From a bacterium (GTDB lineage: Bacteria > Zhuqueibacterota > QNDG01 > DSAB01), in assembly GCA_016931965.1 (NCBI GenBank), contig JAFGDT010000018.1, forward strand, positions 62,001-126,000: a stretch of DNA of 64,000 nucleotides, in the 5' to 3' direction. How positions within the stretch are numbered: the stretch's first letter is position 1; every line of letters starts with the position of its first letter. Shown here one piece after another: positions 5,575 to 44,462 of this stretch. A model generated the notes under the pieces. That model did not search any database. It worked only from the letters and a program-made list of their open reading frames with translations, and was not told where the DNA came from. The position numbers were made by a program, and so were the translations under genes.

Positions 5575-5657
5575 AATTGAGATTGATATTGTTTTTATCC
5601 CATTTTTGACTTTTCCAATTTTATTGCATCGTTGACCTTTCAAATCTGTGTACTTTG

Positions 5658-6521
5658 ATGAATCGGGTACAAACAAATTCTGATTTAAAAGATAATTCTT
5701 CTTATTTTGCCGACTACCATGTTCACACCGCATATTGCGGCCATGCCAAGGGAACCGCAGGGGAGATGGTACACCGCGCACTGCAGCTTGGACTCATGGA
5801 GATCGGTTTCACCGGCCATTTTCCCTATCCCAATGGATTTACCGATCCTGTAGCCAACTGTGTCATTCCCCAAAAAAAATTTCCACATTATATTACTGAG
5901 ATCTTAAGATTACAGGAAGAATTTAAGGGGAAGATCATCATTCGCCTTGCAGCAGAAATTGATTACCTCCCTGAATATGTGGAACAGACTCGGAAGATGG
6001 TTCAAACATATCCCCTCGATTATATCACAGGATCTGTTCATATCATGGAAAACAAACAGATTGACTATAGTGAAGAACTGCTGAGTCAACATATTGAGCA
6101 GTTAGGGGGAGTTCATCGATTATGGGATAACTATTGGCAACATATTGAAGGATTAATTTCATCCGAAATATGCGACATTGTGGCCCATTTTGATCTTCTA
6201 AAAAAATTTAATGTGTCGAAACCTGTAAAAGATGATACCGAACGCATCGATCATTTATTGAACTTGATGAAAGACCGTAACTGTGTTCTTGAAATCAATA
6301 CGGGAGGTATTGACCGGTCCTATAATCATGAGCCTTATCCTTCGTTATACATTATCCGAATGGCATCGGAAAAGAAATTGGATATTATATTGGGAAGTGA
6401 TGCACACCGCCCCGAAGAAATTGGGCGACATTTCAAACCGACACGAGAAATGCTTCGATCATTGGGGTGGAGATATATTATCGTTTTTCAGAACAGAGAA
6501 AGACGATATCAGCCTCTTTAA
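5658..6521 (+). CDS. hisK: PHP-family phosphoesterase, histidinol-phosphatase (HisK/HisJ) type
   Basis: This 287-residue PHP-domain metal-dependent hydrolase is most like the monofunctional histidinol-phosphatases that dephosphorylate L-histidinol phosphate. Metal-ligand motifs are DYHVHTAYCGHA (about residues 19-30), AAEIDYLPE, GSVHIM, IVAHFDLL and a C-terminal GSDAHRPEE. The ATG at 5658 is preferred to the in-frame TTG three bases earlier; neither has a good ribosome-binding site. It lies 80 bases after argR on the same strand and may share its transcript. No other his gene is near, so another PHP phosphatase activity is possible. Confidence 0.8.
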   Translation: MNRVQTNSDLKDNSSYFADYHVHTAYCGHAKGTAGEMVHRALQLGLMEIGFTGHFPYPNGFTDPVANCVIPQKKFPHYITEILRLQEEFKGKIIIRLAAEIDYLPEYVEQTRKMVQTYPLDYITGSVHIMENKQIDYSEELLSQHIEQLGGVHRLWDNYWQHIEGLISSEICDIVAHFDLLKKFNVSKPVKDDTERIDHLLNLMKDRNCVLEINTGGIDRSYNHEPYPSLYIIRMASEKKLDIILGSDAHRPEEIGRHFKPTREMLRSLGWRYIIVFQNRERRYQPL

Positions 6522-6552: not shown

Positions 6553-8235
6553 TTATTTAAGCAATGTCAGTTTCATGGTTTGGCTGTAAGGTCCTGCCGT
6601 TATATGACACATGTATATACCGCTGGGCAGCTGGCTTGCATCAAACTGGACTTGATAGTATCCCGTTTCCTGTTTCTGATCCACCAATGTGGCAACTTCA
6701 CGGCCTGTTATATCATATACCTTTAATGTCACGTGCTGTGGATTGGGCAATTCATATTTAATTGTCGTTTCGGGATTGAACGGATTGGGATAATTCTGGT
6801 GAACTACAAATTTCTCAGGTCTTTTTTCATCACCTGTCTCAACAGAGGTGCCTGGAACCACACCGTATGCCTTGATACAGAGATCGAATTTCCCTTCTTG
6901 ATCATTCCCCAAAGGACTCCATGTATTGTTCAACCCATTACTGCTGATCCAGCATTTACCGGTTTCAATATCAGGTTCCGCATAATTAACAACCTGTTGT
7001 TCGACTGGAACTGGAAGATCCTCTCCAGGAGCCGAGTATTTGACTTTAATATAAAAGTCATTACCGTTGCTTACTGTAATTGGACTGGTGAGGTTAAATG
7101 TGTAATAACCCGGATAATCACATGTTTTATCACCAATTGAACCGAGTAAATTAGAAAGGGAATTTCCATTAAAATTGTCATAGACTGTGAAATTCACGGT
7201 TGTATTGGATGTATTGATCCAGGTACCTAATTTTGTGAGCTGTTCGTTCTGGGAAGGTGCGTATTTGACAAGGCCGTATGCTTGAGAATTATTATAACCG
7301 ATAGATCCCATTGATCCCAGCTTGTCGCAGTAGTAAACTGTCGCACTTGAATTATAATCCATACGCTTCGGCCAATATGCCACGTCTGTATTCACTCTGG
7401 TATCATTATATGAAATATAGAAATAACCATTTTCTCCAAAATTAGTCCCATAACTGTTTTTAACAATCCATGCTCCTAAACCACCACCCGTATTTTTATT
7501 GTCATTCCATCCTACAAGAAGAACGGCGTGATTGGCTTGGATCGTCCCGTTGAAATAATAGGTTTTATTGGAATTGTTATAATAAGCGTAATCCCAGTAC
7601 ATATTTGAAAAAACAGCACCATTATCATAAATAGCTTGTTTAATAATACTAATTAAATTGGGTATGAAACGGACGTCGGTAACGTAACCCTGGGGAATTA
7701 TCCCTGGCGCAGAGGTGCTGTCACTTATGTTATATGGAAGGTCGGTTTCGGAGACGGGTCCACTTCCTCTAATAAAATATGCGGTTGCCATACTGGCATT
7801 TCCACCTTCAATGCAGTGTTTGCGTTTAAAACCGTGAGTGTTTTTCAGATGTTGTTCAGAGAGATCGTATATTCCAAGGCCCAAGGTAAGCCAGTTTGAT
7901 TCAACAGCACCGATGCTGGCAAATACCCAGCAGCAACCACAATTCCCCTGATCTTTGGGAGGGGTCACCAATCCCTCTGTTCGCAAATCGTATGTAGCTG
8001 GCAGATCGAGCGCCTTTTGGAAATTAGCAGGGATCTCCGGTCTGTATTTGACCGGATGGGGAATATATCCTAGCGGGTAACCATCGGATGTGAATTCTCT
8101 GACTTCGCCCTTCTGAAGTGCTTCCATATATTGAATATACTCGGGATTTAAAGGTGCCTGTTTCAGTTCGGGTTCCTGTGTATAAACGGATGAAAATAGG
8201 AATCCACAGAGTAAGGTAATGATGATCTTTTTCAT
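6553..8235 (-). CDS. Secreted papain-like (C1A) cysteine protease with T9SS sorting domain
   Basis: This 560-residue protein has a signal peptide (about residues 1-20) and a short 60-residue pro-like segment. The papain domain has Gln96, catalytic Cys102 in QGNCGCCWVFAS, His236 in NHAVLLVGW and Asn260 in WIVKNSYG. A beta-rich segment (about 290-460) resembles the lectin-like domain that often follows such proteases, and the protein ends in a type A T9SS sorting domain (about 473-560: QNYPNPFNPETT, GREVATL, LPSGIY). It is therefore exported by Sec, passed across the outer membrane by T9SS and probably anchored or released. AAGGAGA precedes the ATG. It is the second gene of an operon whose first gene, 20 bases upstream, is a chagasin-like inhibitor of this protease class. 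An extra Cys lies beside the catalytic one. Confidence 0.93.
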   Translation of the reverse strand: MKKIIITLLCGFLFSSVYTQEPELKQAPLNPEYIQYMEALQKGEVREFTSDGYPLGYIPHPVKYRPEIPANFQKALDLPATYDLRTEGLVTPPKDQGNCGCCWVFASIGAVESNWLTLGLGIYDLSEQHLKNTHGFKRKHCIEGGNASMATAYFIRGSGPVSETDLPYNISDSTSAPGIIPQGYVTDVRFIPNLISIIKQAIYDNGAVFSNMYWDYAYYNNSNKTYYFNGTIQANHAVLLVGWNDNKNTGGGLGAWIVKNSYGTNFGENGYFYISYNDTRVNTDVAYWPKRMDYNSSATVYYCDKLGSMGSIGYNNSQAYGLVKYAPSQNEQLTKLGTWINTSNTTVNFTVYDNFNGNSLSNLLGSIGDKTCDYPGYYTFNLTSPITVSNGNDFYIKVKYSAPGEDLPVPVEQQVVNYAEPDIETGKCWISSNGLNNTWSPLGNDQEGKFDLCIKAYGVVPGTSVETGDEKRPEKFVVHQNYPNPFNPETTIKYELPNPQHVTLKVYDITGREVATLVDQKQETGYYQVQFDASQLPSGIYMCHITAGPYSQTMKLTLLK

Positions 8236-8254
8236 TTTGTTATTTCTCCTTGAT

Positions 8255-8644
8255 TTAAGATTGAACGATCACGGTGAGTTCAAATGTTCTGATAGGCGGG
8301 ATATTCTCTTCAAAATCCCGATGGTAAATGATTTCCAACGTGGTCTTTCCCGTATTTCCGCCTTGAAAATGAAATATCGATTTTCCGCCAGTACCCAGTA
8401 TTCCTGGAGGGGTTTCATCGGGTTGGTATTCGGTTTTCAGGTGAAGAAGAATCGTTGTGTCCACATTCACGATCTCCCATTGGTAGCCTGTCGTTGGATT
8501 TGCATTCAAGACCACATTGAGGCGATGGTCTTTTTTCAATTCCACAGTTGTTCCAGAATCCGCTTCTTTTTTTTCAATGGTTGATGTCGTGCAGCGTATC
8601 CAGACAGCCATCATGATGAACAATAACATCGCATGTTTTTTCAT
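8255..8644 (-). CDS. Chagasin-like cysteine protease inhibitor (family I42)
   Basis: This 129-residue protein has a signal peptide ending near IRCTTS; the Cys suggests a lipoprotein, though WIRC is not a canonical lipobox. The mature part has the I42 loops: NPTTGYQWEI (the NPTTGF/Y loop that enters the papain active site), a Gly-rich GTGGKSIFHF, and a C-terminal strand where RPW is replaced by YHRDFEENIPP. Family I42 proteins bind and block C1A proteases tightly and reversibly. It is transcribed first, from a likely promoter at 8779-8807, with AAAGGAG before its ATG, and the protease gene follows after 20 bases. The pairing suggests that the inhibitor protects the periplasm from the protease before secretion. 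Confidence 0.85.
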   Translation of the reverse strand: MKKHAMLLFIMMAVWIRCTTSTIEKKEADSGTTVELKKDHRLNVVLNANPTTGYQWEIVNVDTTILLHLKTEYQPDETPPGILGTGGKSIFHFQGGNTGKTTLEIIYHRDFEENIPPIRTFELTVIVQS

Positions 8645-8778
8645 GGATTGGACTCCTTTTTTAAAGACTTTGAATGCTATCGATGAAGATTTGTTTGCTG
8701 ATTGATATCCAAAATTTGAAAATAAATGGTTGATGCCATATGTCTCATGTACATCTTGAACAGGGGGTATGACAACTG

Positions 8779-9046: not shown

Positions 9047-10069
9047 TTGAAAAAATGGATCCAAAAGGGGTTTCTCGTTTTTAGCCTATTTCAGTCATCG
9101 TTTGTCCTGGGCGGATTTGTGCTTACAAAATACGGCGATGCTTTTATGCGAATTGGTGTGGGTGCCAGACCATTGGGAATGGGGGGGGCTTGTGTGGCTA
9201 TCTGTAATGATGTGACGTCCATTTATTGGAATCCGGCTGGATTGGCCTCGATGACGATGTTACAGATTCACGGCATGCATTCGGAACGATTCTCAGGCAT
9301 TGTGAATTGGGATTTCATCGGTATAGGTGTGCCCTTTAAAAACAATTTGGCAATGGGCTTTGGTTTTTTCAGATTGGGGGTTGACGGCATTCCCATCACG
9401 GCCCTTCGAGATCCTTCGAGAGAATTAGGAGAGATGTATGTCGATGCATACGGAAATTGGGTTGAGAATGATGTTTATGTGAAAGAATATGTCAATGACC
9501 ATGAGATGTCTTTTGTCTTTTCATTTGCCAAAAAAAGCTCGAATCGCTTATTTTACGGCGGTAGCATTAAGGTGATTCGAAAACATGCGGGAGATTATGG
9601 CGCGTGGGGTCTTGGATTTGATTTTGGTATTATGATGAATCCTTATCGTTCACTACAGATCGGGTGTGTTTTGTTGGATGGATCTTCCACATTGATTGCC
9701 TGGAATGGGGGGAGAAAAGAGCTCATTGCCCCCCATATCAGAACAGGAATAGCCTATCCCGTGCAGATTTATTATTTTGATGTTGTTCCGTTATTGGATG
9801 TCCATATAGATTTTGAAAATCAACAATCAGGTGCACAAATTCATTTTGGCCAGATAGATCTGAATTTGCACGGAGGTATTGAGTTCGGATTTCAGGATCG
9901 CATCGCACTGCGGGCAGGTTCTGACAGGGGATATATCACATTTGGAGTCGGATTGCATGTCTCTGTGTTCAAGATTGATTATGGCTTTTCCCATCATATG
10001 GATTTGGGAAAGACGCATCGTATTTCGATTACGCTTTTATGGGACAAGGATCGTCTCTTTCGATTTTAG
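9047..10069 (+). CDS. PorV/PorQ-like outer membrane protein (UPF0164 type)
   Basis: This 340-residue protein has an N-terminal signal (MKKWIQKGFLVFSLFQSSFVLGG) and then the family hallmark, FMRIGVGARPLGMGGACVA with the nearby IYWNPAGLASM. Members of the PorV/PorQ/FadL-like barrel group sit in the outer membrane; PorV shuttles T9SS cargo to the attachment complex. The rest is a run of beta strands rich in Gly and aromatics. The TTG start at 9047 is supported by GGAG seven bases upstream and by the lack of another start before the signal. It stands alone, with its own promoter. A second, more distant member is at 19996. Which one serves as PorV is unknown. Confidence 0.82.
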   Translation: MKKWIQKGFLVFSLFQSSFVLGGFVLTKYGDAFMRIGVGARPLGMGGACVAICNDVTSIYWNPAGLASMTMLQIHGMHSERFSGIVNWDFIGIGVPFKNNLAMGFGFFRLGVDGIPITALRDPSRELGEMYVDAYGNWVENDVYVKEYVNDHEMSFVFSFAKKSSNRLFYGGSIKVIRKHAGDYGAWGLGFDFGIMMNPYRSLQIGCVLLDGSSTLIAWNGGRKELIAPHIRTGIAYPVQIYYFDVVPLLDVHIDFENQQSGAQIHFGQIDLNLHGGIEFGFQDRIALRAGSDRGYITFGVGLHVSVFKIDYGFSHHMDLGKTHRISITLLWDKDRLFRF

Positions 10070-20991: not shown

Positions 20992-21131
20992 TCTGCTGCT
21001 CCTGTAAACGATCATTCAGATGTACGCTTTGCGGGAACTATAGACATGAATATAGGTTTTAAATACATCACAAGTTGAGGGAAAATAGTTGGACTTTTTT
21101 GAATGATATCGTCACACGGAGAGGAGTATCT

Positions 21132-21905
21132 ATGGAGAATCGTCTGAGAATGGGCAAAGCGTTAGCGGGTTGTATTGTTGTCGTGTTAATGATCGGTTTT
21201 TGGAAGTGTTCGAGAGAGACTGTTAATCTTATCGATATGGCTCCTGAACAGGCATTTGAATATGCTAAACGGACTTACGATCGGGAAGATTATTTGCAGG
21301 CAAAAAATGAATTTACAGTCATTGTGTATAATCATCCTGCCAGTTTGGTCAGTGAAAAGGCACAATTTTATTTGGCCGAATCACATTATCATTTAAAGGA
21401 ATATATCCTTGCGATTTCAGAATACGAGAAACTGATTCGTAATTTTCCTCAGAGTACCTATTCAGACGATGCTTTATATAAGGTGGGTATGTGTTATTAT
21501 CAATTGTCCCCCGGTTATGCCCTTGACCAGGAATATACATTGGAAGCTGTCTCGAAGTTTCAGCAATTTCTGGATGAGTATCCCGATTCCGATTTGAGAA
21601 CGGAGGCGGTGAACCGGTTGGATGAATGTCTCAGGAAACTGATGAAAAAAGAGTACGAGACTGGCGAGCTCTACAGAAAACAAGGTTATTATCGTGCTGC
21701 GATTATCTCCTATGATTATGTTTTAGAAAGTAATTATCAAACAGAATTTGTCGAGAGATCACTTTACTGGAAAGGAGAGTGTCTCTATAAGTTGGGGGAT
21801 TTGGAAGAGGCCGAAGACCTGTTTCAAACCGTCATCAGACAATATCCCCAGAGTGAATGGGCTGAACGGGCAGAGAGAAAACTGGAAGATATCCAAAGTA
21901 ACTAA
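21132..21905 (+). CDS. bamD: Outer membrane assembly lipoprotein BamD
   Basis: The ATG at 21132 has GGAGAGGAG just upstream and gives a 257-residue lipoprotein with its signal ending near GFWKC; the frame stays open to 21075 but without support. The mature protein consists of tetratricopeptide-like repeats, including AFEYAKRTYDREDYLQAKNEF, YLAESHYHLKEYILAISEYEKLIRNFP and LGDLEEAEDLFQTVIRQYP. This matches BamD/ComL, the essential helper of BamA in inserting beta-barrels. It follows the PorV-like gene by 140 bases and precedes nadD, as often seen in FCB genomes. Confidence 0.9.
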   Translation: MENRLRMGKALAGCIVVVLMIGFWKCSRETVNLIDMAPEQAFEYAKRTYDREDYLQAKNEFTVIVYNHPASLVSEKAQFYLAESHYHLKEYILAISEYEKLIRNFPQSTYSDDALYKVGMCYYQLSPGYALDQEYTLEAVSKFQQFLDEYPDSDLRTEAVNRLDECLRKLMKKEYETGELYRKQGYYRAAIISYDYVLESNYQTEFVERSLYWKGECLYKLGDLEEAEDLFQTVIRQYPQSEWAERAERKLEDIQSN

Positions 21906-36254: not shown

Positions 36255-38501
36255 ATGTTTATTCAAATTAAAAAAATATGCCGAACGGTTATTCTCTGTT
36301 TGGGAATTGTCACACTTACGATGCATGACGGGACTGGTGTGAACAAATCCGTTTGGGAGAAAATGGATCCCGTGCTTTGTGAGATGGTCACTATAAATGA
36401 AACCGAGAGAACCGTATGGTCATCTTCTCAATATGAAAATTGGGATCATGAGCTTCGCGTTGAAGTCTTTGTCCAAACAACCGATCCGGAGATCCTGAAA
36501 CGGAAGGTTGTCTCTGTCCGTTCTGTCATCGGGGATATAGTGACGGCTGTCCTGCCGCTTTCAAGGATTCGATCCATCGCTGAATTGACTGAAGTCTCTT
36601 TCATGGAGGCCAGTTCCGTCTGCAGACCGCTGCTGGATATGAGTATCCCTGAAATCAATGTGGATCAGGTATGGAACGGAGATCTGGGAACGGTCTATCG
36701 CGGTGAGGGTGTCATTGTGGGGATATACGATTCGGGGATCGATTGGTCACACCCGGATTTTATCGATGAAGGAGACACAACCAGCCGGGTTCTCTATCTC
36801 TGGGATCAAACAGTCGAATCAGGTCCTCATCCGGATGGCTATGCATATGGAACTGAGTACACACAGGCGGAGATCAATGATGAGATTGACGGGACTCCGG
36901 AAGGGATCGTTCAGGGCAGAGATTCAACGGGACACGGCACGCATGTGGCCGGTATTGCCGCCGGCAACGGAAGGGCCGGTGGAAATGGGCAGCCGACCTA
37001 CATCGGTGTGGCGCCGGAAGCCGATCTCATCGTTGTCAAGGGCGGCAATGAGACCGGTTTTACAGAAGCGCGGATTATTCATGGCATTGACTATATTTTT
37101 AAAAAAGCGGAAGCGATGAATCCCCCCCGTCCGGCTGTTGTGAATCTCAGTGTGGGGGGAACGCAGCGTGGTCCGCATGACGGAACGAGCAGTTTTGAGA
37201 CCGGTCTCGATAATCTCTTGGATGGGAAAACAGGCCGTGCTGTGGTTGTGGCTGCGGGCAATGATGGGGATCAGGCAATTCATTTTAAGGATAATTTTTC
37301 ACCCCCATCCGATTCCCATATTGTGGAATTTCAGGTTGATTTTACACGTTCCGGTTTGGAAGACTATGTTGCTTTTGATATATGGTGTCATAATCAGGTC
37401 AATTTGTCGGCTACTTTGATAACTCCTGAAGATTCAGTATACGGACCCTTTCATAGTGTTCAAAATAAAATTTATAAAACAGTCTGGGGCAGGATCGATG
37501 TCATTGTTATCAATTACACATCGAGAGAAGAAACGAATATCCACCTGAGGATTTCAGACAGGATATCTGAGGGCGAGCTTACAGATCATTTAACTTTGGG
37601 ATCGTGGAAATTGGTTCTATCAGGTAGTGCCGGACCTGTGGAGGGATGGCTTTATGATTCTTCGATGGGGGCGCAGATCACAAGCGATGTGGATTATTCG
37701 ACTCTGATCAATGAGCCGGGCAATGCCCGATTCTGTATTACCGTGGGATCTTACATTTCCAGACTGGAGTGGCCTCATCAACCTTCAAAAGCAGGAATGA
37801 TCGATGATTTTCAGATTGGTGCGCTTTCCGATTTTTCCAGTCCGGGGCCGAAACGAAATTCCCCTATGGAGAAACCGGATATTGTCGCGCCGGGCGAATC
37901 CATCGTTTCAGCCTATTCCAGCGATGTTGATCCGGGTCCAGGCCCGGACTCGATTACGCCCGACGGACAGTACAGAGCCTGGAAGGGAACGAGTATGGCG
38001 GCTCCCCATGTGACGGGTGTGATCGCCTTGATGTTTCAGATCGATCCTGAGCTTGATGTGTCGGATATCAAGAATATCTTTATCAGCACAAGCCGAAAGG
38101 ATGAATTTACCGGTGAAGAAGCCTGGAATCCCAAGTGGGGTTACGGGAAGTTAGATGCGTACGGAGCGTTGCAAAAGACGACATCGGTCCAAGAGGGTGG
38201 GGGATCTTTGCTGCCCGAATCGATAGCACTCTCACAGAATTATCCGAACCCATTTAATGGATCGACCGTAATTACATATACAATCCCCGGGCAGTATGAA
38301 GGACCGGTTACGTTAGAATTGTTTGATATGACGGGACGAAAAGTGCGTACTCTGGTTCAGGAAATGCAGACATCGGGTCAACATGAAATAATATGGGAAG
38401 GCCGGGATGATCAGGGACTCCAGGTGGGCTCGGGTGTTTATGTCTATCAGCTGAGAGTGGATCAAACCCTCATGAGTAAAAGGCTTATTTATCTGAGATG
38501 A
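36255..38501 (+). CDS. Secreted subtilisin-like serine protease (S8) with T9SS sorting domain
   Basis: This 748-residue protein has an N-terminal signal and a 110-residue pro-region. The S8 catalytic domain has Asp159 in YDSGIDWSHPDF, His227 in DSTGHGTHVAG, oxyanion Asn335 in AAGNDG and Ser580 in KGTSMAAPHVTG. A long beta-rich insertion (about 345-480) separates the oxyanion Asn from the Ser, as in some Bacteroidetes subtilases. The C-terminus (about 662-748) is a T9SS sorting domain: QNYPNPFNGSTVI, GRKVRTL, SGVYVYQL. It is expected to degrade proteins at or outside the cell surface. It lies 116 bases after xerD and 37 bases before the next T9SS client. Confidence 0.93.
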   Translation: MFIQIKKICRTVILCLGIVTLTMHDGTGVNKSVWEKMDPVLCEMVTINETERTVWSSSQYENWDHELRVEVFVQTTDPEILKRKVVSVRSVIGDIVTAVLPLSRIRSIAELTEVSFMEASSVCRPLLDMSIPEINVDQVWNGDLGTVYRGEGVIVGIYDSGIDWSHPDFIDEGDTTSRVLYLWDQTVESGPHPDGYAYGTEYTQAEINDEIDGTPEGIVQGRDSTGHGTHVAGIAAGNGRAGGNGQPTYIGVAPEADLIVVKGGNETGFTEARIIHGIDYIFKKAEAMNPPRPAVVNLSVGGTQRGPHDGTSSFETGLDNLLDGKTGRAVVVAAGNDGDQAIHFKDNFSPPSDSHIVEFQVDFTRSGLEDYVAFDIWCHNQVNLSATLITPEDSVYGPFHSVQNKIYKTVWGRIDVIVINYTSREETNIHLRISDRISEGELTDHLTLGSWKLVLSGSAGPVEGWLYDSSMGAQITSDVDYSTLINEPGNARFCITVGSYISRLEWPHQPSKAGMIDDFQIGALSDFSSPGPKRNSPMEKPDIVAPGESIVSAYSSDVDPGPGPDSITPDGQYRAWKGTSMAAPHVTGVIALMFQIDPELDVSDIKNIFISTSRKDEFTGEEAWNPKWGYGKLDAYGALQKTTSVQEGGGSLLPESIALSQNYPNPFNGSTVITYTIPGQYEGPVTLELFDMTGRKVRTLVQEMQTSGQHEIIWEGRDDQGLQVGSGVYVYQLRVDQTLMSKRLIYLR

Positions 38502-38538
38502 CTTTAATGTGCCATAATCAAATTTATGGAGGTGTACC

Positions 38539-41500
38539 ATGAAGACACTCATACGTATTTTGACTGTTTTTTCTGTTGGACTTATTGTTTTTGTTGTTCT
38601 AGCTCAAGGACCTACCAATCGGCTTTCAGGTCAGACAGGCAAGACAGTAAATGTTTTAGAAGAACCAAGTTCAATCCAGCCAGTGAACAACACGGATATT
38701 CCAATACCTGATGATCAAGATACAAATAGGATGAAACAGACAGGTACTGCATCCAACAGCACCGACATAACATTGATTGCCCACTATCCGCTCAGCACAG
38801 ATGCCAATGACATAACAGGCAATTATGGTCCCATGACTTTAAGAAACACGCCATTTCAGGATGGGGGAATATATTGTAATGGCATCTATAGTAATTATGA
38901 GGATCCCAGTTCTTCCAATGCGGTTACTCCGAATCTCAACGGACTAACCTTTGACGCCTTTTCAATTAGTGCTCAATTTAAGGTGGATGAATATCGCTAT
39001 GGTCCTGTCTTTGTTGGAGGCGATGACTACCGATGGATGGGTTTTATTCTTTTTCCTGACAGTACAGTGACGTTGAAATATAATAACTTCAATGATCAAG
39101 ACAGTAATGTTCATTATTCTTTGAATACATGGCATGAAGCAACAGTAACATATGAGGCAGATTCTGAAACCGGCAAACTCTATTTGGACGATACACTTGC
39201 ATGTACTGCAACATTTCAAATAAATCACGGTTATGATAGAGAGGTGGGTATCAGTGATTACTCTACCGGTTTTGTTTTTAAGGGTATTTTTCGCGATCTG
39301 AAAATTTATAACGGTGTGATTGATCCATCAGTTTATACCAACAACGTAGCCATTCCGACATTTAACCCTCCTCCAGGAACATACTCGGCAACTCAGGACG
39401 TAATCATCAGTTGTGCTACACCGGATGCAACGATTTACTATACAACTGATGGATCAGATCCGACTGAATCAGATGCTATTTATAGCAGTCCCATACATAT
39501 TTCCAGTACAACCACTTTAAAAGCCAGGGCGTACAAGAGTGGTTTAGATCCCAGCTATATAGCCGGTGGAGAATACATCCTAGCGGCCCCCATCAAATAT
39601 ATCCGGGTGGGAAAAATGTGGGCCAAGATCCTGGATAGTGGGAGTTTTTCAGAAGATAGTGGGACGAACTATAATTGGTATTATACACGCGGAGCGCATA
39701 CCGCATCTGTTGTGCGTTCTTCGGGGACGCGTTTCGGTGCAAAAGACTGGATTGATGAAAACGGTAACTTATGGTCTGTCAAGTTGTCGGGCGCTCCTTA
39801 TCGCATGGCCAACAACACCGACAATTGGTTTGGGCTGCCCTATCCGGGTGAGGAGAATTTGACAATCAAAAGATTTTACAGATATCAACCTCCGACGATT
39901 ACGGTAGATGGATTTTCCTGCCAGAATCCTTTCCCACAGGTTGGAGATGAAGTCAATACCAGTCAAATTCCTGGAACAGCGGATGTCATGATAGAATCCT
40001 ACATCCGGAACTGGATGGGTCTGGAGATTCGTGCCAGATCATTCGGATGGAGCCAGAAACATCACGATGATTATGTCATCTATGACTGGCTCATCACCAA
40101 TACGGGCAATGTCGATCGGGATGTGGATATTGAACTGAACACCACAATCACCGATCTTTTTCTCATGCGCCAGCAGATGATTTCTCCCAATTCTGGTTCC
40201 GAATGGAGTGAATATTATGGTGAGAACATATCGGACACCTCGCGGATCATGTATTCTACGCCAACCAGACGAAAACTTTATGTTGAGGATCGATACGGCA
40301 TACATAAAGACAGGGTACTTGCTGAGGAAGATAGTTATGATCAGCCTGGTCAAACTTTTGTTGGTGAGGGTACACTTTTTGTTCAAAGAACCTGGAATGA
40401 TCCTATAGACGATCCATCCCAGCCGCGGATGCACTGTGTATCTGGTCCCGATGATCTTGCTTTCTGGATGGAATCAAGCGTAAGGCCCGAATCCGACTGG
40501 TTTCTGGTTTACACGGTTATGCAGGAAGGTTACCGCTCGATCAATCCCTGTCTTTACATGAACGAGGCTTTTCCTGAAGCGGACGTCTACCCCAATACCG
40601 CACATGATGTGGAATTACCAAAGAGAGGAAAGCCCTATCTGGAAGATTTTTCTTGGTGGTACTGGCACCAGGTAGCATCCAGTGCTGCAGGACCTTGGGA
40701 TCTTCCAATCGGTGAGTCAATCCGATACGTTTGGGCAATTGTGGGTGGTGCTTTAAAGCCCGAAATCGCCTGGCAGGTCTATTATGATTGGGATGGCGGT
40801 ATCTGTACTTGGCCGGAATGGGAAGCCGGTGGAGCCAACGATTTGGGAGAGAAATACCCCACATTTAATGATTTTCCAGAGGTATCTCCTACGGCCAATG
40901 ATCAAGCGAAAGACCGTTGGGTTGTCACGGGTATGGATTCCCTGTTGATGAACAACTATGCAGCTCAATGGGCCGTTCAGAACGATTATGATGTGCCTAT
41001 TCCGCCTCCACCTCCTTCCATCGAAGTACTCTCCCTGCCTAATGCAATACGTATCAGTTGGGGAAGTGAATCTGAGGCGGCATCCGATTTTGCGGGCTAT
41101 AGGGTTTACCGGGCAGAAGGTTCCAATTACTATCACTATTACCAGGGAATTGAACTGGGTAAATGGGAAATGATCTATGAAGTCACCGGATCGGGAACCC
41201 ATTCGTATGATGATATAACGGCAATGGTGGGTAAAGGTTATTATTACTATGTAACCGCTTTTGATGATGGTATACAGAACAGTGCAGATGTCTATAGTGC
41301 AGGAGGAGAAGTTCTCGAGAGTGGACGATTTACAAATATGACAACAGTACCTGCATATTTAGCTACATCAGTAAGCCACAATTTCCCTCAACGAGGCCAG
41401 ATCCCCACAGTATATGGACTTTCTCAGAATTATCCCAATCCCTTTAATCCGGTAACCCGCATTCAGTATCAGCTGCCTAAAACCAGCCATGTGAACCTGG

Positions 41501-41685
41501 GCGTATACAATCTGACGGGTCAGGAAGTAGTGTGTTTGGTCAATGAAATGAAAGAAAAAGGGATCTACTCCGTGGAGTGGGATGGGAGAGACAGCCAGGG
41601 CGCTTATCTGCCTTCGGGAATTTATATCTATCAGATTAAAGCGGGTGAATTTACGGAATCCAAAAAGCTGATTTTAAGCCGGTGA
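38539..41685 (+). CDS. Large secreted multidomain surface protein with T9SS sorting domain
   Basis: This 1048-residue protein begins with a signal peptide (to about residue 22). Residues about 78-262 look like a LamG/concanavalin A-like sandwich (LIAHYPLSTDANDITGNYG, ISAQFKVDEY, EATVTYEADSETGKLYLDD). A chitobiase-type beta-hexosaminidase C-terminal repeat follows (PPGTYSATQDV, ATIYYTTDGSDPTESDAIY). A long central region of unknown fold (about 350-830) is rich in Trp and Tyr, then a fibronectin-like stretch (about 835-920), and finally the T9SS sorting domain (about 962-1048). No catalytic motif is visible; adhesion or polysaccharide binding is likely. The last 261 bases closely match the end of the gene at 42333. 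Confidence 0.85.
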   Translation: MKTLIRILTVFSVGLIVFVVLAQGPTNRLSGQTGKTVNVLEEPSSIQPVNNTDIPIPDDQDTNRMKQTGTASNSTDITLIAHYPLSTDANDITGNYGPMTLRNTPFQDGGIYCNGIYSNYEDPSSSNAVTPNLNGLTFDAFSISAQFKVDEYRYGPVFVGGDDYRWMGFILFPDSTVTLKYNNFNDQDSNVHYSLNTWHEATVTYEADSETGKLYLDDTLACTATFQINHGYDREVGISDYSTGFVFKGIFRDLKIYNGVIDPSVYTNNVAIPTFNPPPGTYSATQDVIISCATPDATIYYTTDGSDPTESDAIYSSPIHISSTTTLKARAYKSGLDPSYIAGGEYILAAPIKYIRVGKMWAKILDSGSFSEDSGTNYNWYYTRGAHTASVVRSSGTRFGAKDWIDENGNLWSVKLSGAPYRMANNTDNWFGLPYPGEENLTIKRFYRYQPPTITVDGFSCQNPFPQVGDEVNTSQIPGTADVMIESYIRNWMGLEIRARSFGWSQKHHDDYVIYDWLITNTGNVDRDVDIELNTTITDLFLMRQQMISPNSGSEWSEYYGENISDTSRIMYSTPTRRKLYVEDRYGIHKDRVLAEEDSYDQPGQTFVGEGTLFVQRTWNDPIDDPSQPRMHCVSGPDDLAFWMESSVRPESDWFLVYTVMQEGYRSINPCLYMNEAFPEADVYPNTAHDVELPKRGKPYLEDFSWWYWHQVASSAAGPWDLPIGESIRYVWAIVGGALKPEIAWQVYYDWDGGICTWPEWEAGGANDLGEKYPTFNDFPEVSPTANDQAKDRWVVTGMDSLLMNNYAAQWAVQNDYDVPIPPPPPSIEVLSLPNAIRISWGSESEAASDFAGYRVYRAEGSNYYHYYQGIELGKWEMIYEVTGSGTHSYDDITAMVGKGYYYYVTAFDDGIQNSADVYSAGGEVLESGRFTNMTTVPAYLATSVSHNFPQRGQIPTVYGLSQNYPNPFNPVTRIQYQLPKTSHVNLGVYNLTGQEVVCLVNEMKEKGIYSVEWDGRDSQGAYLPSGIYIYQIKAGEFTESKKLILSR
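41425..41685 (+). repeat. T9SS tail cassette, copy 1
   Basis: The 261 bases encoding the sorting domain at the 3' end of the 38539 gene align without gaps to 44202-44462. By hand count about 214 of 261 positions match, with identical stretches of up to 23 bases. The preceding parts of the two genes are unrelated, so the cassette was probably copied or kept similar by gene conversion. Confidence 0.8.
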
Positions 41686-41691
41686 ACGATA

Positions 41692-41755
41692 GTCACGCTG
41701 AGGCGTGGTCGAAGGGTGAATTAAAATAAAATCATCCCTCGACTCCGCTCGGGAT
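41692..41755. repeat. Palindromic intergenic repeat
   Basis: The left arm 41692-41719 (GTCACGCTGAGG...GTCGAAGGGTGA) is an imperfect complement of the right arm 41732-41755 (TCATCCCTCGACTCCGC...GGGAT), with a 12-base AT-rich centre. It starts six bases after a stop codon. The sequence pattern is that of widely dispersed short bacterial palindromes. It may also help stop transcription, though no U-run follows. Confidence 0.6.
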
Positions 41756-41865
41756 AAAAGGAACGATTCTATCCAAAATAAAAGAAAGAAATTTTCTCGA
41801 AGGATTGAAGTAGCTTGTGTAGACAATGATTATAGAAAATAAAATGACATTATAGTATTTTTTTC

Positions 41866-41894
41866 TTGACTTTCTCCTAAAAATTTATTATCAA
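41866..41894 (+). promoter_or_regulatory. Promoter candidate for the RNA region and the gene at 42333
   Basis: TTGACT (41866-41871) and TATCAA (41889-41894) are 17 bases apart. If used, it would give a leader of about 430 bases containing the whole hairpin-rich segment before the coding sequence. Confidence 0.4.
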
Positions 41895-42080
41895 TTAGCA
41901 TATTCAATAAATATTTTTCCTTTCAACGTCTCATATTTCCGAGTAAAGAAGCCGATATGTCACTTCGCAATGCATAAGTAATGCGGGGTGATTATTCATG
42001 GTGACGCGATTTGTTGTCATCAAAATATGATTCATTTATAAAGGAGGTTTCTCGGAAGATAGAGTGGTTTTTATATGTTG

Positions 42081-42268
42081 TACAGATTCATAGAAAGAGA
42101 ATCTGTATGAGTAGCCGCGCGTCTGAAGTGAGTTTTTGGGGAGAGAAACTTCAGTTCTGATGCAGAAATGGAGGGGGTTGAAACGGTCTTTTGGGTAATC
42201 TAGAAAGACTTGCCATGACAGCCGGGCTGAAAAAGTGTATATCACTTTGATGAGGTGCGGCTTTTTTT
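42081..42268 (+). ncRNA. Candidate structured RNA (cis-regulatory leader or small RNA)
   Basis: Five local hairpins are packed here: TACAGATTC/GAATCTGTA (42081-42089 with 42099-42107), CTGAAGT/ACTTCAG (42123-42129 with 42148-42154), GTCTTT/AAAGAC (42186-42191 with 42204-42209), CAGC/GCTG near 42219, and AAAGTG/CACTTT (42232-42237 with 42243-42248). The 3' strand GCGGCT (42257-42262), followed by seven T, can pair either with AGCCGC at 42113-42118, closing the whole fold, or as CGGCT with AGCCG at 42220-42224, making a terminator. I could not match it to the TPP, SAM, cobalamin, glycine, c-di-GMP, ZTP or THF riboswitch consensus, nor to RNase P, tmRNA or SRP RNA. It ends 64 bases before the ATG at 42333. 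Confidence 0.45.
42220..42268 (+). terminator. Possible intrinsic terminator at the end of the structured RNA
   Basis: AGCCG (42220-42224) and CGGCT (42258-42262) enclose the AAAGTG/CACTTT hairpin and are followed by a run of T (42262-42268). The outer stem is short with a large interior loop, so strength is uncertain. It either ends a small RNA or works as a switchable terminator before the gene at 42333. Confidence 0.45.
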
Positions 42269-42332
42269 ATTTGTGTTTTAAATATCTTTATCGAGTATAA
42301 AATAATTTTTAAAATATTGAAAGGAGACAGCC

Positions 42333-44462
42333 ATGAATACAAAAGTCATTTTTATGAGCTGCGTGATTGTCTTGTCCGTGATGCTCGCAACTCAAATCGT
42401 GTTCGCAAATACAGCCCCTCATGCCAATTTTATTTACCAATGTGTATATGAACGTAACATTTATGGTCTTGATGAATTTGATTTATATTTAGATGCATCA
42501 TTGAGTTGGGATGCCGAAGATCCTGGGGATTCACTTGAAGTGAGATGGATTATTTGTTATGGTTATATGGGGGAAGAAGAATGGATTTCTATAACTGATG
42601 AAACTGATTGGATGACGGATCGCAATCATCATTGGCACGAAATAGATTTATATCCAACAGACGTGACACTGGAAGTTAGAGATACGGATGGATTAATTTC
42701 CATGAACAAAAAAGATATATCAATTATTGAGAATGGAGATCTCATAATAACACCTCCAGATCTATTGGAATTTGGGTATGTTAATATTTATAATTATTTA
42801 GATAAAACAGTTCGTATTGGTACAAAATTTTTCTATCATGAAATAACAGATATAGTATCGACAAATCCTCAATTTGAGGTGATTGGAGAAACATCTTATT
42901 TTTTTACTTCAATTGAAGATTATTATGATGTTGTTATTCGTTTCAGCCCCACATCAGAGGGAATCCAATGTGGTGATTTAGATATTTTTTCCAATTATAA
43001 TGTTTGTGTTAACAGTATTGTAATGACTGGATATGGTAATCCATCTTCGTCTCAGTTACCAGACATACAGTGCAATCCAACTTCTTTGACTGTCAACCCA
43101 ACAAACATATCGCTGGGTGGTACATTTGATATCTCCGGCACCATAGAAAATAATGGTATTTCTTCCACAGGAAACGATTTTCAGGTCAATTTCTATATTT
43201 GTACATATCCCGATGTATTGGAATTTCAGAGCAGTTATTTTGTGGGCAGTTTTATAGTGACTGTTTTGGATCCCGGGTCAAGTAGCAGTTTCAATGAAAC
43301 CATTACCGTGCCCGAAACGGCTGATCCAGGAATCTATTATGCCTGGGTCAGTATCGATCCGGGAGGGGTGGTTGAAGAAAGCAATGAAATCAATAACCAG
43401 CAATCCTGCAGTATGCCATTGACTGTCATTCCGGAAATGAAAACCATCACCGCCCCGGGCATACCTGAATCCCTTCTTCCAACGATTGATGGCTCGCTGG
43501 ACGATCCGGTCTGGTCTTTCTTTATCGATGAAGACTCTCTGCTCTGCGGCGGAGTGCCTGAAGACTGGAACAATCCCTGGACTTCCTATGCCGATAACCT
43601 GGTCACCTATCAAGTCTGCTGGAGCGACCAGACCAACAAGCTCTATCTGGCTGTGCATGTTCAGGATGATATCAGAGGTATACCGGATAATGGTGCTTAT
43701 TCATCAACCTATGCTCCTTATCTTGATGATGCTGTTGAGTTCTTTACGGACGGAGACCACAGCGGAGGTTCTTACGCATTTGAACAAGCGCAACAATGGT
43801 TTGTTGTAACGTTAGAGAACCATCTATCACTGAGCAATTATCCTGATTCTGAAGCCGCTTATTTGTATACGGGAGATGATGTTCAAACCGCTGTTCAGTT
43901 GGGAACAGACGGAAACTGGACCTGTGAAGCAGAGATCACGGTTTACAATACATTTCCCAGTCAGGTCAAAATATTACAAGAAGGAGACATCATCGGCTGG
44001 GATATCTGGTATAATGATTCAGACAATGAAACATTTGTTGAACCTTATTATTCGAGAGATCATCATACGGGCTGGTATTACGGTGGTCCATCCTATTGGA
44101 ATGCCGATTGTTTTGGCTGTTTGATGCTGGGATCGGAGATAGAGGATACCGGTGTGACACCGGAAGAACTTTCTCAGGTCGTAGCCCAATTCAGCATCCA
44201 ACAGAATTATCCCAATCCATTCAATCCAACAACCCAGATTCAATATCAGCTGCCCAAGACCAGTCATGTGCATCTGAGCGTGTATAATCTAATGGGTCAG
44301 GAAATGGTGTGTCTGGTCGATGAAGTTAAGGATGCAGGGATCTACTCCGTGGAGTGGGACGGGAGAGACAGTCAGGGCGCCTATTTGCCTTCGGGTATTT
44401 ATATCTACCAGATCAGGGTGGGGGAATTTATTGAGTCGAAGAAACTGATTTTAAATCGGTGA
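42333..44462 (+). CDS. Secreted multidomain protein with CARDB-like and CBM9-like domains and T9SS sorting domain
   Basis: This 709-residue protein has a signal peptide (about 1-26). A PKD-like segment (about 28-130) and a segment resembling choice-of-anchor/HYDIN-type domains (about 135-235) are followed by a CARDB-like domain (about 245-370: SLGGTFDISGTIENNG, PGIYYAWVSID). A family 9 carbohydrate-binding-like sandwich comes next (about 390-605: PTIDGSLDDPVW, YQVCWSDQTNKLYLAVHVQDD, DDAVEFFTDGDHSGG), then the sorting domain (about 622-709). CBM9-like domains bind sugars or haem, so surface polysaccharide binding is likely. GGAG precedes the ATG, and a candidate regulatory RNA lies upstream. 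No catalytic residues are recognised. Confidence 0.85.
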   Translation: MNTKVIFMSCVIVLSVMLATQIVFANTAPHANFIYQCVYERNIYGLDEFDLYLDASLSWDAEDPGDSLEVRWIICYGYMGEEEWISITDETDWMTDRNHHWHEIDLYPTDVTLEVRDTDGLISMNKKDISIIENGDLIITPPDLLEFGYVNIYNYLDKTVRIGTKFFYHEITDIVSTNPQFEVIGETSYFFTSIEDYYDVVIRFSPTSEGIQCGDLDIFSNYNVCVNSIVMTGYGNPSSSQLPDIQCNPTSLTVNPTNISLGGTFDISGTIENNGISSTGNDFQVNFYICTYPDVLEFQSSYFVGSFIVTVLDPGSSSSFNETITVPETADPGIYYAWVSIDPGGVVEESNEINNQQSCSMPLTVIPEMKTITAPGIPESLLPTIDGSLDDPVWSFFIDEDSLLCGGVPEDWNNPWTSYADNLVTYQVCWSDQTNKLYLAVHVQDDIRGIPDNGAYSSTYAPYLDDAVEFFTDGDHSGGSYAFEQAQQWFVVTLENHLSLSNYPDSEAAYLYTGDDVQTAVQLGTDGNWTCEAEITVYNTFPSQVKILQEGDIIGWDIWYNDSDNETFVEPYYSRDHHTGWYYGGPSYWNADCFGCLMLGSEIEDTGVTPEELSQVVAQFSIQQNYPNPFNPTTQIQYQLPKTSHVHLSVYNLMGQEMVCLVDEVKDAGIYSVEWDGRDSQGAYLPSGIYIYQIRVGEFIESKKLILNR
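44202..44462 (+). repeat. T9SS tail cassette, copy 2
   Basis: Counterpart of 41425-41685: same length, no gaps, about 82% identical by hand count. Many differences are silent third-position changes, which suggests that the protein sequence is under selection as well as recently shared. Confidence 0.8.

Follow-up and report, generated by a model that had tools for sequence, protein, structure and literature searches.

The window, a 64,000-nt stretch of contig JAFGDT010000018.1 from a member of the Zhuqueibacterota (genome G000), contains two adjacent genes on the minus strand, the first encoding a small chagasin-family (I42) protein and the second a papain-like (C1A) protease with a type IX secretion system (T9SS) sorting domain. 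The features of this locus are:

8255-8644, minus strand: gene for the I42 (chagasin-family) inhibitor, 129 aa, first of the pair (PF09394, E 9.1e-23)
6553-8235, minus strand: gene for the C1A papain-like protease, 560 aa, second of the pair
8653-8658, minus strand: Shine-Dalgarno-like AAGGAG ahead of the I42 start (from the sequence)
8246-8251, minus strand: Shine-Dalgarno-like AAGGAG ahead of the protease start, inside the 19-nt spacer (from the sequence)
8591-8644, minus strand: N-terminal export signal of the inhibitor ending at Cys18 (WIRC), a possible non-canonical lipobox (from the sequence)
8270-8539, minus strand: I42 domain, aa 36-125 (Pfam profile)
7399-8004, minus strand: C1A catalytic domain, aa 78-279 (PF00112, Peptidase_C1, E 2.3e-31)
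7930-7932, minus strand: catalytic Cys102, in QGNCGCCW (alignment)
7528-7530, minus strand: catalytic His236 (alignment)
7456-7458, minus strand: catalytic Asn260 (alignment)
6865-7338, minus strand: Lectin_like domain, aa 300-457 (PF18560, E 6.9e-26)
6568-6792, minus strand: T9SS type A C-terminal sorting domain, aa 482-556 (PF18962, Por_Secre_tail, E 8e-13; TIGR04183, E 5.4e-12)

The protease gene lies downstream of the inhibitor gene, separated from it by 19 nt, and the two form an isolated unit, as both neighbors, encoding a PHP-domain protein (5655-6521) and a PorV/PorQ-family protein (9047-10069), are on the plus strand. The latter gene is divergent from the inhibitor gene, and its product matches NF033709 above the cut-off. 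The coordinates, strands and frames of both genes agree with the first-pass annotation, which also correctly placed the protease closely 3' of the inhibitor; the spacer, given there as 20 bases, is 19 nt. No terminator-like site was found at the pair, and promoter-like matches there fall within two standard deviations of shuffled sequence. We saw no sign of recent horizontal transfer of the pair, its GC and GC3 matching those of neighboring genes. By profile search, the genome contains one I42 gene and two C1A genes.

The catalytic residues of the protease, Cys102, His236 and Asn260, align with those of about 55 C1A relatives, confirming the intact set proposed earlier, and Gln96 takes the place of the oxyanion residue. 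The active-site motif is QGNCGCCW, versus the usual CGSCW, and a propeptide-like N-terminal stretch precedes aa 78. A C1A domain with a T9SS tail had been recognized in the first-pass annotation; the Lectin_like domain between them had been overlooked. The best solved relative is 4ci7 (E 2e-25), recorded as a putative cell surface-associated cysteine protease, which we take to be Cwp84 of Clostridioides difficile. Cwp84 likewise combines a C1A domain with a lectin-like domain but belongs to the cell wall of a Gram-positive bacterium and lacks a T9SS tail, and we know of no I42 partner for it. A second T9SS-tailed C1A-Lectin type (L108, L109, L110, L115-L118) is widespread in the phylum; its active-site motif is GGTCW, in which the usual preceding cysteine is absent, and it has no I42 neighbor.

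A profile search, which had been named beforehand as the check on the identity of the small protein, places it firmly in I42: PF09394 is covered from position 2 to 91 of 91, with 80.8 bits versus a cut-off of 27.2. Its closest solved structures are ICP (2wgn, E 2.6e-14) and amoebiasin-1 (6cjz, E 2.2e-13). Chagasins are characterized by the motifs NPTTG in loop L2, GXGG in L4 and RPW/F in L6 (PMC2607524). As claimed earlier, the first two are present, L2 reading NPTTGYQW at aa 49 and L4 ILGTGG at aa 82; L6 reads RDF, a departure from the third motif. Other members that match the full profile carry L6 variants too (RDW, RQW, RSW and RNW), and two I42 proteins with RDW come from a different T9SS-bearing phylum; the RPW/F motif is therefore common in I42 rather than defining for it. 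In chagasin, the W93A substitution lowers the affinity for cathepsin L 100-fold but leaves the inhibition of cruzipain intact, which the authors attribute to Asp18 of cruzain (PMC2607524). Asp95 of the protease in the window, located just before the oxyanion Gln96 (KDQGNCGCCW), would by our inference correspond to this Asp. An AlphaFold2 model of the inhibitor alone, computed without an alignment, had a mean pLDDT of 43 and was discarded.

The export signal of the inhibitor ends in WIRC, which departs from the canonical lipobox in having Arg rather than a small residue at -1. The lipobox Cys is kept in most I42 relatives of the phylum, some of which have canonical lipoboxes (VLAC, FIAC, LFAC); Arg at -1 recurs in L048, L049 and L050, and the I42 proteins of G048 and G049 have no Cys at this position. 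It is plausible from these signals that the inhibitor is a lipoprotein. Elsewhere in the window, the product of 21075-21905 (plus strand) has a possible lipoprotein signal ending in FWKC, where a basic residue again precedes the Cys.

Across 82 genomes of the phylum, I42 was found in 13 and C1A in 58. In 11 of the 13 the next gene downstream of I42, on the same strand, encodes a C1A protease; the number rises to 12 if G051 is counted, where the two genes are at contig ends in an orientation consistent with a pair. The sole unpaired I42 gene (G037) has no C1A partner. The pairs are spread over seven families, with spacers of about 10-131 nt, the start codons being uncertain. Elsewhere in the phylum, I42 is usually paired with another kind of papain, which is short (about 315-360 aa, Pfam E about 1e-50) and has a Sec signal but lacks a sorting tail; the copy in G019 is cut by the contig end. 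Among 12 sampled members of this short-papain clade, all adjoin I42 except that of G043. A search for I42 genes beside tailed C1A genes had been proposed in the first-pass annotation as a check on conservation; the adjacency does recur, while the partner is mostly not of the Por_Secre_tail type.

Outside the phylum, in a wider sample of 388 genomes, 19 genomes encode I42, with adjacency to C1A in only two (G229 and G116) and no C1A gene at all in seven. Bacterial I42 proteins thus evidently have more than one use. Searching the phyla around G229, G352 and G111 (3, 8 and 4 genomes, respectively) gained little, and a contig scan with the protease of the window as query returned only a distant C1A protein of the Phycisphaerales, without I42. 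The plasmid-borne I42 genes that we inspected (Klebsiella, Acetobacter) have no annotated C1A neighbor. The control, Methanosarcina acetivorans, gave matches to I42, C1A and Lectin_like. Other arrangements include doubled I42 domains in a single protein (L092, 5679-6551) and I42 at the C-terminus of longer proteins in genomes without a C1A gene (L094, 5414-6847; L096, 5889-6902).

In G229, a member of another phylum, I42 precedes a C1A-Lectin protein of 735 aa, whose C-terminal domain is of the sorting type and scores below the curated cut-off for Por_Secre_tail, above that for FlgD_ig and at 4e-30 with a purpose-built profile. The G229 proteins are the best matches to those of the window among the sequences compared (I42, 46.6%; C1A, 50.2%), and the two pairs share a joint ancestry: window and G229 are sisters in separate trees of I42 (97/87) and C1A (93/58, the latter moderate). 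The genes flanking the pair are unrelated between the two genomes. In G116, from a third phylum and lacking SprA, I42 is followed by two C1A genes, which are tandem paralogs (L098, 6010-9182). With one I42 gene and two C1A genes in the genome of the window, and with the adjacency repeated in seven families and in two further phyla, chance falls far short of accounting for the pairing.

Of the T9SS machinery, the genome of the window encodes SprA (TIGR04189, 848 bits with neighbors; cut-off 200) and the PorV/PorQ-family protein at 9047-10069; with SprA present, export of the protease by T9SS is credible. SprA was also found in G229. The first-pass annotation saw in T9SS transport the reason for the inhibitor. 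As a general account this is rejected: at least 18 T9SS-tailed C1A proteins of the phylum have no adjoining I42, and most of the I42-paired papains carry a Sec signal but are tail-less. The inhibitor hence goes with the protease rather than with the route of secretion, and the common denominator across the phylum is I42 with a Sec-exported papain, the T9SS step not being general. The closest C1A-Lectin relatives, in G010 and G014 of the same order, have neither an I42 neighbor nor a detectable tail. In the window and in G229, the tail makes it possible that the enzyme is kept silent until exported; in the other pairs, the two proteins probably stay together in the periplasm, as suggested by a Sec signal without a sorting tail.

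From the identity, order and recurrence of the genes, the ancestry shared with the G229 pair and the intact catalytic and mostly intact inhibitory motifs, we consider it likely that the two genes form a bicistronic unit whose chagasin-family product is the cognate inhibitor of its C1A protease. The solved chagasin complexes pair exactly these two families (2oul, 3e1z, 2nqd; PMC7863939). The two genes would be co-transcribed, and the inhibitor would be translated first, exported by Sec and probably held in the envelope as a lipoprotein, where its L2 (NPTTG), L4 (GTGG) and L6 loops would fill the active-site cleft of protease molecules that mature too early, while still in the periplasm. The T9SS-tailed protease could then leave for the surface, where it would be released from inhibition and act away from the inhibitor. 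The self-protection pair envisaged in the first-pass annotation is accordingly favored by the recurrent adjacency in the same order, by the union of window and G229 in both trees and by the presence of SprA, while its T9SS-specific story does not carry over to the other pairs.

Alternatively, the inhibitor could be aimed at foreign C1A proteases, such as those of predators, protists or neighbors, with the adjoining protease as a co-regulated offensive partner rather than the target. There is precedent in Cip1 of Pseudomonas syringae, which inhibits tomato proteases, most Pseudomonas genomes lacking C1A (PMC5014320); the seven I42-bearing genomes without C1A and the plasmid genes without an annotated C1A neighbor point the same way. 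For the pairs described here we nevertheless regard a foreign target as unlikely, because immediate adjacency of the C1A gene recurs in seven families and in two phyla besides, with the inhibitor always first, and because both genes of the window and G229 pairs share their ancestry. It has less in its favor that the inhibitor, instead of simply silencing the enzyme during export, helps it to fold or mature or confers immunity against sister cells. The Sec-only, tail-less state of most paired papains, which would keep them in the same compartment as the inhibitor, would suit such a role, but the conserved inhibitory loops fit active-site binding and the enzyme carries its own propeptide-like stretch; we judge this quite improbable. 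That two secreted-protein genes were merely co-inherited without a functional link, as the unpaired I42 of G037 and papain of G043 might suggest, is hardly tenable: by our own estimate, the adjacency expected in one genome is about 2 in 3000 genes, yet it holds for 11 of the 13 I42 genes in the phylum, whose flanks differ and whose protease partners are of two types.

The proposed cognate inhibition by a neighboring gene product has counterparts in known systems. The KLIKK proteases of Tannerella forsythia are T9SS cargo, and their genes are directly preceded by those of small inhibitor lipoproteins, the potempins (PMC7296668). In the window, too, the gene of a T9SS protease immediately follows that of the inhibitor, but the pair consists of C1A and I42. 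The KLIKK proteases belong to the metallo- and serine classes, and potempins are not known to be chagasins. Staphopain and staphostatin (C47/I57), the precedent given in the first-pass annotation, are similarly a secreted protease of papain fold and a small inhibitor from the same organism that is specific for it (PMC7863939). The precedent is apt in that respect, but both families differ from those of the window, and the potempin-KLIKK operons are a much closer match. The staphostatin gene lies downstream of the protease gene, and its product stays cytoplasmic.

Among I42 proteins, chagasin of Trypanosoma cruzi, which acts on cruzipain, and other protozoan ICPs also regulate the C1A enzymes of their own cell (PMC2607524, PMC5014320), but in the protozoan case the chagasin lacks a signal peptide and shares no operon with its target. 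Pseudomonas Cip1 is, like the inhibitor in the window, a bacterial exported I42 protein, and has NPTTG, GxGG and RPW (PMC5014320); in contrast, its targets are plant proteases, and most Pseudomonas lack C1A and thus an endogenous partner. The role of bacterial chagasins had not been elucidated as of 2016, and extracellular targets were argued because most Pseudomonas have no C1A enzymes (PMC5014320). In a search of the open-access literature, we found no description of a chagasin with type IX secretion or of an I42-C1A gene cluster or operon. This agrees with the earlier claim that a chagasin paired with a T9SS papain is undescribed, although priority is not certain. The organization, an inhibitor gene followed by a T9SS protease gene, is known from the potempins; it is the version with chagasin and papain that appears to be new to that literature.

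The conserved I42-C1A bicistron, present in seven families and two other phyla, offers a direct genetic handle on an endogenous role of chagasins and extends a potempin-style logic to a different fold of inhibitor and another class of protease. It is probable that some chagasins of bacteria keep in check an enzyme of the cell itself rather than one of a host. Whether this endogenous role is also the ancestral one seems to us evenly balanced; an envelope-anchored I42 protein encoded upstream of a secreted papain, and co-evolving with it, would then be a transferable module; in T9SS bacteria, the proteases of some such modules would bear sorting tails, and the inhibitor would protect the periplasm while T9SS export proceeds. 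Other T9SS-tailed products of the window are three consecutive large proteins encoded at 36255-44462 (plus strand), the first of which (36255-38501) matches models of subtilase-type serine proteases.
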